A stretch of DNA of 64,000 nt from an uncultured Candidatus Saccharibacteria bacterium. Lineage in GTDB: Bacteria > Patescibacteria > Saccharimonadia > Saccharimonadales > UBA4665. Below, one piece after another: positions 50,759 through 58,443 of this stretch (position 1 is the stretch's first letter; every line of letters starts with the position of its first letter). Below the pieces are notes generated by a model. It had not been told where the DNA came from. It ran no database searches and saw nothing but the letters and a program-made list of their open reading frames with translations. The position numbers and the translations under genes are program-made. The DNA lies in the NCBI GenBank assembly GCA_946482285.1, contig CAMLQK010000001.1, positions 62,001 through 126,000 of the forward strand. The letters run 5' to 3'.

Positions 50759-53700
50759 ATGGACAAGCGTGTGGAGTTACGTGGTGGACTCATACCTTCC
50801 GGTAACTGTGTTCCGGATGGCGACAATACCGCCGTGTCTACAACCTTCGCAGAAATTGACGCCGGCCGCTCTGATGAGCGGCTGCTTGTTTTAGCGCAAA
50901 ATGCCTGCCAGATGTGTGTTCAGATTAACCATTGTACCGTCCAAACAGACCACATAGCCACCGAACTCTGGCAAAGAGGTGCGGGTATTGTTATAGCCGG
51001 CGGGACAAAAGTTACGCTCTCCCACAAAGAGCGGCCTGTAGACGAAGATAGGCCTATCTTACGCTTCAATTTGAGCGCTATTCCCGAAGATCCGGCTGAC
51101 GCAGTCGCCATTATACGGCAAGCTTTCCGTGCGGGGCAGTTCAATGCCACCGGCCCTACACCTAAAGGCGTCCGGCAAGCACAGCAAGCATATCTTGGGC
51201 GCTTAGAGCAAACAGATGCCGGCCTGCACACACGGCTATCTACCATGGAAAAAAGCGAGCTCGATTCCTGCATGAAGTTCGTCCTGACTGCCCTGTTCCA
51301 GCAAAAAGACTTCGTCAATTACGCTGCTGGGCAGGACCACTATGTCGGGGCGGCACGGGAAAGCACGCGTTACCACTCGAAATACATCAACCCCGAAAAA
51401 GATGACCCGATTATTGGCATTTTTTTACAGGATGCGCTAGCCATCCGCGACATGCAGCTGAGCCAAATAGCATCTAAGGCTGCCCACTTTGAACCTGGAT
51501 ACTATGCAGAGCTAATCAAAAAATATAAAACTGACGATATCACCCTTAAAGAGTTTGATACAAAAGTTATCCACGCCAGAATCAACCCGGTGCAGGCGAT
51601 CGTTAAGCACCAAGCCACCGTAGGCCGCATCCATGGTGAACAGCCTGATATAAGTCCGGCGGCGGCCCGCGAAGCAGCAAGGCGAGGCAGTAAGACTCTA
51701 CTTTCAAAAGAAAAGCTACAGACACTCATTGAAACCTATCGGTCCGATAGTATATCTGCCCAACAAGTCATACAATTTGCACATAAAAATCCAGGCAGCC
51801 CAGAGGCCGCTCTCGATGGGCTAACAGCACGGGTAGAGCACTTAAAAACCCTCTACCCCGCCGGCCGCCCTACCGTACGGGACGTTGAAATTGTCGCGTT
51901 CGCCCAAGGATACCGCACATTAGAAGGATGCCAGGCGGCTGCCCAGCAGTTTGACAATAACATGCAAGCCCTCACTGCGGAGTACGGCGATGACCCAGAT
52001 ATCACCCCAAGCGATATCCGAAAGTACAGTGGCATGCAAGATGGCCATAACGCTATCGCCACTTTTAAGGAGCGAATCAGTATGCTTCGGGAAACCGTTG
52101 GTGAAGACGTGAGTGATTCAGTAATCCGCCAATGTGCCAGAAGTGGCGTTACTTCGCCGCTCGAAGTCCAGTCCAAGTATACACAAACTGTTTTGCGCGA
52201 CCGATATGCCTACCGCGCACGTACCAAGCCAGAATACAAACCGCTTTCTTCCGAACTCATAGAGCGCATCGTCACTTTGTATCCTCGTTCCGAAACCGAC
52301 CAAGTAGCACAGACTATTTTTGAGCTTATCAAGCGCGACTATCTGGTACTTGGCCGTGCCGAAACATACGCGCAACACGGCCAACTCCCGGAAGTGTTTG
52401 ATAAGATATTCACGCCCAAGACACAGGAGTACTTGACTTTCTCTGGGGCACTTGGACAGCTCTTGCCAATACAGCGCCTGGCATTTGCACACCATCATGG
52501 CCTCATGCCGATCCTGTATGGCACTGCTTCCAGCTCTGTGCTGTTCGAACAGAGCGCCTTGGACGGCGCAACCATCAATGACTACTATACAACCCATGTC
52601 GAACCACAGCTCGCAGCCTATGAAGCAAGCAATACACCAATGAGCTTGTCCTTGCTCGCTATGGACAGCGCCGAATACGAACGCCTCTTACGGCAAGACA
52701 ACCGGCTGCTTATAAATGATGCCGACCGCTTGACGGCTTATGGCCTACGCGATGCCACTCTTGTTGTCGCCGGAAAAGCACTATACCTGCACGAAGATAC
52801 TTACCGCTGGGACTGGGCAGAGCATGCGACTGACTTTGACGCTTGGCTGACTCAAAAAATAAGCACAACCTACCCGCCTACACATCAAAAAAGGGCTTGG
52901 ACGTACATTCAGGAGGCAATCCATGGTGGTGTCCTAGACCTACTAGGGTCACATCCTGGCGAGTACCAACTTGTGTTCAATAAACAGTTCTATGGCCCGG
53001 ATGTCACCGAAGTACAACGCACAGTAGTAGCCAACGCAATGGGCATCGACCGGCTTATGTATGGCAGCGACCTGACAAACGCCTTGCGATACCGGTTGGG
53101 CGACGTCCCGCAACTCGTAACCATCCGGAGGCGCAGCTCGCAACCGACAATTGTCGAACTTCCGGCCGAGCAGCTACAGGCAGCACGTAATACTCTCGAG
53201 CACAGAACATCTAGAGGCCACCAGTCCTCCTCCGCCCTTTCTAGTGTTACTCACACTTCCGTAAGACCAGCACTGGTTCCTACCACACCAGGCACAGAGT
53301 CAGATGAGTTAAATAACCTGGATGAACAAAGCAGTGCAACCAGCTTTGAAGACTATTACGAAAACCAGGTCGCCCGTTACCCGCTGCTAACTGCCGAAGA
53401 GGAAGTCACACTTGCTAAGGCGATCGAGGCTGGCTTGCTAGCCGCTGAGGCCTTACAACAAGGCGGGTTCAGGAACGCGACAAAGCATGAGCTCGAGGAG
53501 ATTGTTCGCATCGGAGATGAAGCAAAAGAACGGATGTTTCTAAGCAATACCCGGTTAGTCATTAAGTTTGCCGGCAAACTAATACCCACCATCGGTATGT
53601 CCAGACTTGACTATATCCAGGAAGGTAATATAGGTCTCATGCGTGCTATCGAAATGTTTGACTACACTAAAGGCTACAAGCTCAGTACATATGCAGTGAG

Positions 53701-57300: not shown

Positions 57301-58443
57301 CCCAAGAAGAACCCCACAAAGAAAAACACAACTACGCCCACACAGCAAAAAACACCTGATGCTTTCGACCCAGAAGTCACTCCACACCCCGAAGATACAT
57401 CGGCAGCTACGTCCGTAGACCCTGACGCAGCCGAAGAGCGTTTACGGAATAAGCTCAGCCCCACAGCCGCCGGACAATATATGAACCGAGCTGGCAAGAT
57501 GACCCTGTTAACCGCGGCCGAGGAAGTCGACCTCACCAGGGCTATCGAAGCTGGTGTTTTTGCGCAAGTTTATCTAAATCGCGGCGATTACAGACTGGGC
57601 ACACACGACGAACTGCAACAAATCATCCACCTGGGAGACCAAGCACGGCAACGTATGGTCGAGGCTAACTTGCGCCTGGTTATCAAGCGGGCTTACATCC
57701 ATTTGCAACGGGTCCGCAGTATGCAGCTAGAAGACTTGATAAACGAAGGGAACATGGGTCTGATGCACGCTGTTGACATGTTTGACTACACTAAAGGCTA
57801 CAAGTTCAGTACATATGCAGTGAATTGGATCGACCAGTACATACGCCGTGCTATAGGTAACCAAGAGAACGAAATCCGCATTCCAATCCATGCCTTTGAG
57901 CTTCTCAAGAAGATCAAAGGGTTTCAGGCGGCTTATCTTACCGAGCATGGCACCCACCCCGACACCACTATCGTTGCAGAGGCGCTAGGCAAACCGTTAA
58001 GTCAAATCGAAACAGCACTGACCGCCATGCGCAGGCAGCCAATATCAATCCATACGCCCATTGGCGATGAAGGCTCGGAACTCGGCGACCTCATAGAAGA
58101 TGTCGACGTGTCAGACCCTAGCGTTATTGTCACTGAAGCTGTGACAGTCGACACCCAGGCCACCCTGCATCGTATTTTTGATGAACAATTTAATACACAC
58201 GCCTACCGCATTGGGGTTCGTGTTCTCATCCTGCGCAATGGCCTCAAACTCAACCCAAGTTTCATATCAAAAGACTTCGTCGACCTGCATGGCGTCGAAG
58301 AAGGCAAACAATACACCATGGAACAAGTTGCCGGCATGCTTGATACTACCCCTGGAGATGTCAGGAATCATGAGCGACGGCTGGTCAATATGATGCGACA
58401 GCCGCACATGCGTCAACTATTACTAAGCGGCTTGCAAACTTAA
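54379..58443 (+). CDS. WhiB-like Fe-S domain fused to sigma-70 factor, paralogue, 1354 aa
   Basis: GTG start. Cys14, Cys49, Cys52, Cys58 (C-x34-C-x2-C-x5-C; AARAACAQCVQLNHC) and the turn GVGATVVSG repeat the WhiB-like layout. The middle region is colinear with the first fusion (LFQQKDFTNYS against LFQQKDFVNYA; repeats ERLIFAHHYNLTPLLYG near 577-594 and QRAAAANSLGIDPLIYG near 751-768). An extra ~150 residues precede the sigma part: a helical segment with AARRFGIDPDEVDTLV and a Lys/Pro/Thr linker (about 950-1010). The sigma-70 starts near 1019: 1.2 (MNRAGKMTLLTAAEE), 2 (ANLRLVIKRAYIH; LEDLINEGNMGLM; YAVNWIDQYIRRAIG), 3 (IRIPIHAFELLKKIK), 4.2 (YTMEQVAGMLDTTPGDVRN). The first melting Trp is Asn. 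Confidence 0.85.
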   Translation: MSEYRTGIFPHGNCVDSPETNPQSAVHEFVQIDNGDIALEALEAARAACAQCVQLNHCQSQREDITLELWRRGVGATVVSGEHSITVGAPNPHGIDRPAFHFDLTKLPEDPKQALEALRQGWRADQLVVRGKPSKGAITISSQYFEQLKSTNPDLYQQAIDVLGEDEALHGVQTLASILFQQKDFTNYSNKKTKMTSVNASPDRKRTVSRYSPHHIELDKDASIIDQYVSEAISIRNLGYSKPANKAMIFDAGYYKALMEEYRDRLSTYTIDYTVTANRRNPAAALLDVIARSAIIRAANPIATEALVTTAATRKKYTGGSVEERVQAVQAAHTDVPYVTPGFIRSLMALNPNGDVEKLAADTVSRITRFEKEYKGKPYVDHRVVYETARTHYSDESCRKALDAYSRRMEEVRQQITHPEATVAVLRKHYSVDTDKMITNVTSYCDRLDRLMAISDGSVAPYRIREAVKHGAETWPEVCRSAALFDTRKLLKKHGYKQDESTRAALRTVSYKYPYAEIGTVGLALRQCMDQGYVSVANVNTELLPSDIHPDTQNLFTNKKHEYLALNGAFQHLSPEERLIFAHHYNLTPLLYGRDVHTMQMSSILDGRTVQQWHDETIAPALAELLKEPDAKTILSMEAISEDLYYFDSLFSQDSTAEPHLQSSPPPSNTYVVAGQVLQLQVVGDVWQDSDPRYDWLWARITSLYPPAQQETAFHHCVALIRSDVVNLIGNDTSGYRVILNNAFYADEVSDIQRAAAANSLGIDPLIYGNDLTKFLQQYPQEQTHFGVHIAPQGMVVNEVVLQTDATSAETPETGQDPTERPIPHSLEELLEISFGDGYQLSRMSDRQRAALIKNLMQAFSQHIEHPNHRKLAKGNKYPLFLAWQLLQGADVNKAARRFGIDPDEVDTLVLQGMAIIAHSIDEMPASRLRPIQRLLEKLPAPRAVKPAKPAAVQSVAPVEPVSAPPTETKNPQRPKKNPTKKNTTTPTQQKTPDAFDPEVTPHPEDTSAATSVDPDAAEERLRNKLSPTAAGQYMNRAGKMTLLTAAEEVDLTRAIEAGVFAQVYLNRGDYRLGTHDELQQIIHLGDQARQRMVEANLRLVIKRAYIHLQRVRSMQLEDLINEGNMGLMHAVDMFDYTKGYKFSTYAVNWIDQYIRRAIGNQENEIRIPIHAFELLKKIKGFQAAYLTEHGTHPDTTIVAEALGKPLSQIETALTAMRRQPISIHTPIGDEGSELGDLIEDVDVSDPSVIVTEAVTVDTQATLHRIFDEQFNTHAYRIGVRVLILRNGLKLNPSFISKDFVDLHGVEEGKQYTMEQVAGMLDTTPGDVRNHERRLVNMMRQPHMRQLLLSGLQT

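Follow-up and report, generated by a model that had tools for sequence, protein, structure and literature searches.

We identified two adjacent genes, in a 64,000-nucleotide stretch of contig CAMLQK010000001.1 (here called the window), that each encode in one polypeptide a conserved N-terminal domain with four cysteines (the head) and a C-terminal sigma-70 factor. An earlier note, made from the sequence alone, had placed two tandem giant genes at this site, and both open reading frames (ORFs) are indeed open and intact, as is the union of the two domains in a single chain in both tandem copies. Together with relatives found outside the window, the products of gene 1 and gene 2 (the giants) form a real, small, and unusual protein family.

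A small family of giant proteins

We found eight relatives outside the window, seven by querying with residues 1 to 840 of gene 1 and one with residues 1 to 860 of gene 2, and these were combined with the two giants in an alignment of 10 rows. A profile search added just five sigma-domain proteins of 442 to 520 amino acids (aa), which lack the head, and pattern scans of GTDB and viral contigs returned no relatives. Two of the eight proteins are near-identical versions of the genes in the window, P0001 corresponding to gene 1 and P0015 (1,353 aa, 93% identity across 1,356 aligned columns) to gene 2. The remaining six (P0002 to P0007), with 34 to 41% identity to gene 1 over the alignment, are 1,325 to 1,385 aa long and can be aligned from the head to the C terminus; one of them, P0005, has no precomputed Pfam domain. 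Since the 1,353-aa version of gene 2 and the six more distant proteins occur elsewhere, these full-length relatives rule out that separate genes were fused by an assembly join. The alignment is also consistent with the GTG start of gene 2. Within the pair formed by gene 2 and P0015, residues 1 to 780 and the last ~95 residues are almost identical and residues ~781 to 1258 are clearly more divergent, a mosaic pattern pointing to recombination within the linker and the sigma part.

Mean pairwise identity was computed on seven divergent rows, P0001, P0015, and P0007 being left out as near-duplicates. It amounted to 50.4% for residues 1 to 84, 38.4% for residues 110 to 290, 28.5% for residues 290 to 495, and 43.8% for residues 495 to 780, and in the sigma part to 36.3% (region 1.2), 42.6% (region 2), 22.0% (region 3), and 30.8% (region 4). 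The four-cysteine head is thus the most conserved part of the proteins, all others lying between 22.0 and 43.8%; inside the sigma part, region 2 is maintained and regions 3 and 4 are drifting.

The head and the sigma part are separated by a middle of ~700 aa, composed of a duplicated module and helical repeats. Modules A and B of gene 1 matched each other in hhalign with a probability of 95.7% (E value of 1e-8, score of 50.1, the best of 100 shuffles reaching 22.4). The module consists of helices and two strands, and no Pfam family exceeded its cut-off in this region. We rejected the idea that module A or B is a copy of sigma region 4 (hhalign probability under 1%). Ahead of the modules, in residues 257 to 493, 4 of the 15 pairings of six repeat units gave hhalign probabilities of 83 to 89% (four units being involved) and the others lower ones, and the structural model of this block showed alternating helices with a predicted local distance difference test (pLDDT) score of 67 to 89. 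In 8 of the 10 rows, module B is followed by an extra domain ahead of the sigma part; gene 1 and the cut-short P0001 lack this domain.

The four-cysteine head and the WhiB family

The cysteine positions reported in the earlier note were confirmed, namely residues 17, 50, 53, and 59 of gene 1 (C-x32-C-x2-C-x5-C) and residues 14, 49, 52, and 58 of gene 2 (C-x34-C-x2-C-x5-C). The four cysteines are no chance pattern, as they are also kept in the relatives: they are present in all 10 aligned rows, which have no other cysteine in common. The first gap is 32 to 39 residues long, and the x2 and x5 spacings are found in 9 rows. Over residues 1 to 110, eight aligned N termini share 26 invariant columns, 24 of which fall within residues 1 to 84 and include C17, C50, C53, and C59. 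The note's "Gly turn" is present as well, but it is not the WhiB turn, as it reads R-G-[AV]-G-x4-[GS]-G in 10/10 rows.

The arrangement of C-x2-C-x5-C with a further cysteine binds a [4Fe-4S] cluster in Wbl proteins (PMC6282962, in excerpt) and in endonuclease III/MutY (PMC11138216, in excerpt). Because it does so in two different settings, a cluster is likely in the giants too, and the Fe-S site suggested by the note fits the spacing of the cysteines; judging from the sequence, the head likely holds a metal center, which would probably be a [4Fe-4S] cluster. Low-confidence models place helices at residues 24 to 34, 40 to 51, and 56 to 72, with C50 and C59 in two of them, which is compatible with WhiB1, whose cysteines sit in helices 1, 2, and 3 (PMC5741622, in excerpt). 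Two other assignments were discarded: the endonuclease III-type cluster loop, as its first gap is 6 residues (PMC11138216, in excerpt) versus 32 to 39 in the giants, and DUF6455 (E value of 1.6, gene 2 only), which we considered noise.

The earlier note had gone further and called the head WhiB-like. Wbl proteins are defined by four cysteines and a G[V/I]WGG motif (PMC6282962, in excerpt), and membership of the head in this family was not supported. The Pfam model PF02467, which recovered a phage WhiB at 7.2e-24, matched neither the two full proteins nor eight N termini at E values of ≤10. A PDB profile search with the head listed no WhiB, and a generic WhiB query recovers 10 distinct WhiB chains. 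Neither G[V/I]WGG nor the looser form G-x2-[GA]-G occurs in any of the 10 giant rows. Among 23 WhiB rows that we collected from phages and plasmids for comparison, the exact motif was found in 15 and the looser one in 22; the exact motif is less strict than the excerpt of PMC6282962 states, and it is the looser form that separates the WhiB rows from the giants.

Profile similarity to WhiB was marginal and carried by the cysteines. With hhalign, an eight-row head profile aligned to 13 phage WhiBs with a score of 19.85 (pair E value of 0.0085, probability of 4.7%), bringing into register the four cysteines, an A-x3-C ahead of the triad, and a GG after it. This score was exceeded by 1 of 200 column shuffles; when the cysteine columns were kept fixed, 10/200 shuffles scored as high, and reading Cys as Ser brought it down to 8.4 (from 19.9). 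We also compared the head, at two lengths, with the 23 WhiBs and obtained scores of 18.6 and 18.4, values attained by 2/150 and 1/150 free shuffles and by 4/150 and 10/150 shuffles with fixed cysteines, respectively. Taken together, the head/WhiB comparisons had scores of 18.4 to 19.9, pair E values of 0.006 to 0.009, and probabilities of 4 to 7%, and were equaled by 3 to 7% of the Cys-fixed shuffles, whereas the same method gave a score of 50 on the internal duplication. The Cys-fixed shuffles and the drop upon reading Cys as Ser indicate that the likeness is mostly one of cysteine pattern. As for the sigma-binding interface, the WhiB3-SigA complex is lost when Ala replaces any one of F31, F32, and W76 in WhiB3 or H516 in SigA (PMC10245118, in excerpt). 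The FF pair after the first cysteine (of which one F is kept) and the W of G[V/I]WGG are missing from 10/10 giant rows; the position of SigA H516, matched by eye, is His in one of the nine sigma-bearing rows, and the residue after it is Pro in all nine.

The WhiB label is therefore a fair analogy for the head, and homology is not established. As the head has neither the motif, even in the looser version, nor a match to PF02467, we did not file it as WhiB but kept as a rival explanation that it is a true, far-diverged Wbl domain, derived from an actinobacterial host or phage, which would contact region 4 of its own sigma part in the way WhiB contacts SigA. We regard this as unlikely: the order of the cysteines and the triad, their register with A-x3-C and GG in the profile alignment, the looseness of G[V/I]WGG among the WhiB rows themselves, the actinobacterial look of the sigma part, and the precedent of WblP (see below) argue for it, against the negative PF02467 search, the distribution of G-x2-[GA]-G, the missing interface residues, and the success of the Cys-fixed shuffles.

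Four-cysteine sites often bind zinc, and the head could instead hold a structural zinc and form, with the helical middle, an arm that binds proteins or nucleic acids and so recruits a constitutive alternative sigma factor to its target. The middle, long and scaffold-like with its duplicated modules and helical repeats, would suit such an arm. However, C-x2-C-x5-C with a distant fourth cysteine is a known [4Fe-4S] arrangement and, to our knowledge, not a usual zinc spacing, which makes this explanation improbable in our view.

The sigma-70 part and a proposed function

The earlier note had assigned sigma-70 regions 1.2 to 4 to both C termini. In gene 1, regions 1.2, 2, 3, and 4 all exceeded the Pfam cut-offs; in gene 2, the assignment stands for regions 1.2, 2, and 3 but not for region 4, which reached 12.6 bits for a cut-off of 24.1. 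The sigma part of gene 1 matched actinobacterial HrdB/SigA from the PDB at 171.6 bits. Region 1.1 (PF03979) had no match in either giant at E values of ≤10, and no RpoD-type equivalog or subfamily cut-off was reached among the best 25 of the 48 and 46 matches of the giants. The sequence FDYTKGYK[FL]STYA is kept in six of the nine sigma-bearing rows, including genes 1 and 2. Of the two tryptophans of the -10-melting pair, the second is kept in 7/9 rows and the first is lost in all nine (R, N, N, I, N, Y, H, N, and N in P0008, P0009, P0015, and P0002 to P0007). The first Trp of this pair helps open the -10 element, and promoter use should therefore differ from that of RpoD.

The window contains an ordinary RpoD, 18 kb from the giant genes, and the giants are thus predicted to be additional sigma factors. 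RpoD is 30 to 31% identical to their sigma parts, keeps the Trp pair (WW in STYATWWIRQ), and lacks a 17-residue insertion that the giants carry in region 4. It also lacks the stretch between regions 1.2 and 2 (residues ~880 to 925 of gene 1, likewise in gene 2 and the relatives) that the giants have in common with Streptomyces-type HrdB. Seven of the 10 plasmid matches listed for gene 1 are actinobacterial, and these two observations hint that the sigma part may derive from Actinobacteria. Matches to MzaA, from an anti-phage system, were set aside, as the matched stretches lie in the common sigma-70 part.

We propose, as a reading that is quite possible but that we would stop short of calling probable, that the giants are alternative sigma factors with an on-board sensor, probably a [4Fe-4S] cluster, and that they work like WhiB or CorE/OrbS. 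The metal center on the four cysteines would gate the use of RNA polymerase. In the cluster-bound state (reduced, iron-replete, and free of nitric oxide), the sigma regions would be kept in a given arrangement by the head together with the helical middle. Once the cluster is lost or oxidized, this arrangement would shift, and the sigma part would be either freed to bind core polymerase or promoters or stopped from doing so. Sensing could operate in either direction, with the protein active with or without its cluster. With another residue in the first place of the Trp pair and extra residues inserted in region 4, the giants would use promoters different from those of RpoD. Such action would resemble that of a Wbl protein joined to its own sigma factor, or that of the on-board metal sensors of CorE/OrbS, and implies no descent from either. 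A bolder version, which we consider doubtful, would make the giants a sigma factor class of their own, gated by iron-sulfur clusters, in which a [4Fe-4S] head acts within the chain on a housekeeping-type sigma factor via the ~700-residue arm. The head would then be either a Wbl-type module, the first one outside Actinobacteria and their phages, or a module of that type invented independently, and tandem pairs would provide two redox-set promoter programs in a possibly epibiotic, small-genome bacterium.

Besides the missing FF pair, W, and H516 equivalent and the low score of region 4 in gene 2, several observations weigh against alternative sigma factors with an on-board sensor. Residues 1 to 110 modeled alone had a mean pLDDT of 45 and no usable fold match, and Cys17, in contrast to Cys9 of WhiB1, falls outside the predicted helices, so that the modeled fold lends the proposal no support. 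P0005 departs from the common spacing with C-x2-C-x7-C. In a Pfam scan that covered two relatives, P0006 had no region 4 and a sub-threshold region 3, and P0003 had a sub-threshold region 1.2, its regions 2, 3, and 4 exceeding the cut-offs. P0004 and P0005 have kept the cysteines but no longer show the consensus of region 2.3-2.4 or the second Trp; with a degenerate sigma part in 2/9 rows in which the cysteines persist, what is conserved as output may be something other than sigma activity. Finally, P0001 (782 aa) is 99% identical to gene 1 up to a frame change directly before the sigma part, which may reflect an error, decay, or on-off switching; intact copies exist.

That the sigma regions are fossil, the giant now serving as a scaffold or as a polymerase-binding regulator (e.g., an anti-sigma-like competitor of RpoD) that does not initiate, is quite unlikely: the losses just described, the absence of the first Trp, and a sigma identity below that of the head (though that of region 2 about equals that of residues 495 to 780) point to it, yet FDYTKGYK[FL]STYA is intact in most rows, and the Pfam cut-offs are exceeded by all four regions of gene 1 and by three of P0003.

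If the head of these putative alternative sigma factors carries a redox cluster, one molecule would unite sensing with promoter choice, and the effect of an Fe-S center on a sigma factor could be examined with no need to assemble a complex. Should the lineage be the one guessed in the earlier note, such a regulator would also be unusual in an epibiont with a small genome. Even with a purely structural head, the giants would stand out, as we know of no other sigma-70 proteins of 1,200 to 1,400 residues with a long uncharacterized repeat arm.

Genomic context and known systems

Each giant gene is preceded by a promoter-like site (Table 1), and neither has an upstream Shine-Dalgarno match. Given the short distances of these sites from the start codons, genes 1 and 2 are likely transcribed from separate RpoD-type promoters, each as a leaderless mRNA. 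We also inspected 23 gene starts of the window, taken from the ORF list and including 50759 and 54379, some of which were not checked against the family library. A TATAAT-like hexamer (5 or 6 of 6 bases) had its first base 18 to 11 bases upstream of the start codon in 9/23 genes, versus 10/207 control positions farther upstream, and eight of these nine genes have no Shine-Dalgarno match. This pattern suggests widespread leaderless transcription in the source genome. The genes tatA and tatC adjoin, and between tatC and gene 1 lies a 64-aa ORF (50490 to 50684, forward strand) encoding SRKEFL followed by a hydrophobic segment, which by eye resembles a Tat signal or anchor.

Table 1. Positions in the window of the giant genes, their parts, and associated features
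Feature	Position	Strand	Evidence or detail
Gene 1, giant sigma-70-like protein, 1,189 aa	50759..54328	+	Intact ORF, Pfam sigma regions
Gene 1 four-Cys domain, residues 1-84	50759..51010	+	Invariant columns in aligned N termini
Gene 1 Cys-codon stretch	50807..50935	+	C17 50807-50809, C50 50906-50908, C53 50915-50917, C59 50933-50935
Gene 1 two-helix repeats, ~40 aa, residues 257-493	51527..52237	+	hhalign, model
Gene 1 module A of internal duplication, residues 490-602	52226..52564	+	hhalign
Gene 1 module B of internal duplication, residues 686-782	52814..53104	+	hhalign
Gene 1 sigma-70 part, residues 862-1189	53342..54325	+	Pfam, PDB sequence match, fold matches
Gene 1 sigma regions	1.2 53363-53437, 2 53537-53722, 3 53780-54007, 4 54092-54286	+	Pfam
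Gene 2, giant sigma-70-like protein, 1,354 aa, GTG start	54379..58443	+	Intact ORF
Gene 2 four-Cys domain, residues 1-84	54379..54630	+	C14 54418-54420, C49 54523-54525, C52 54532-54534, C58 54550-54552
Gene 2 sigma-70 part	57475..58389	+	Pfam; 1.2 57475-57564, 2 57655-57864, 3 57898-58119, sub-threshold 4 58303-58389
Promoter-like TTGTCA-17-TATAGT	50720..50748	+	Ends 10 bases before gene 1 ATG
Promoter-like TTGAAC-18-TATAGT	54338..54367	+	Ends 11 bases before gene 2 GTG
RpoD, ordinary primary sigma factor, 380 aa, regions 1.1 to 4	31380..32522	-	Adjoins dnaG (32522-34291)

Compared with known systems, the giants resemble the Wbl/WhiB proteins (WhiB1, WhiB3, WhiB7, and WhiD) in the C-xn-C-x2-C-x5-C pattern and in being functionally tied to a SigA/HrdB-type sigma-70 factor, and perhaps in the helices predicted, with low confidence, around their cysteines. 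They differ from them by the lack of a G[V/I]WGG or G-x2-[GA]-G turn, of a Pfam match, and of most interface residues, and by having head and sigma part in one chain, ~700 residues apart. The earlier note knew of no fusion between a Wbl domain and a sigma factor; a precedent exists in WblP of plasmid SCP1, which like the giants has a four-cysteine head and a sigma factor in one chain (PMC6282962, in excerpt). WblP, as described in that excerpt, combines an extracytoplasmic function (ECF) sigma factor with a recognized Wbl domain and is encoded on an actinobacterial plasmid. In contrast, the giants contain a housekeeping-type sigma factor with regions 1.2 to 4, measure 1,189 to 1,385 aa, and are encoded in tandem among chromosomal housekeeping genes.

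CorE and CorE2 (Myxococcus) and OrbS (Burkholderia) offer a possible functional analogy, as a cysteine-based metal sensor within the sigma chain controls binding to polymerase or promoters. Their sensors are C-terminal, belong to ECF sigma factors, and respond to copper (CorE), cadmium (CorE2), or Fe(II) (OrbS). The giants, with an N-terminal cysteine head and with regions 1.2 and 3 present, do not fall into the CorE/OrbS-type class, from which they also differ in their housekeeping-type sigma factor, size, and tandem pairing. Compared with HrdB/SigA, the giants lack region 1.1, have lost the first melting Trp, and carry a giant N-terminal part, but these proteins are the best sequence and fold matches of their C-terminal ~330 residues.

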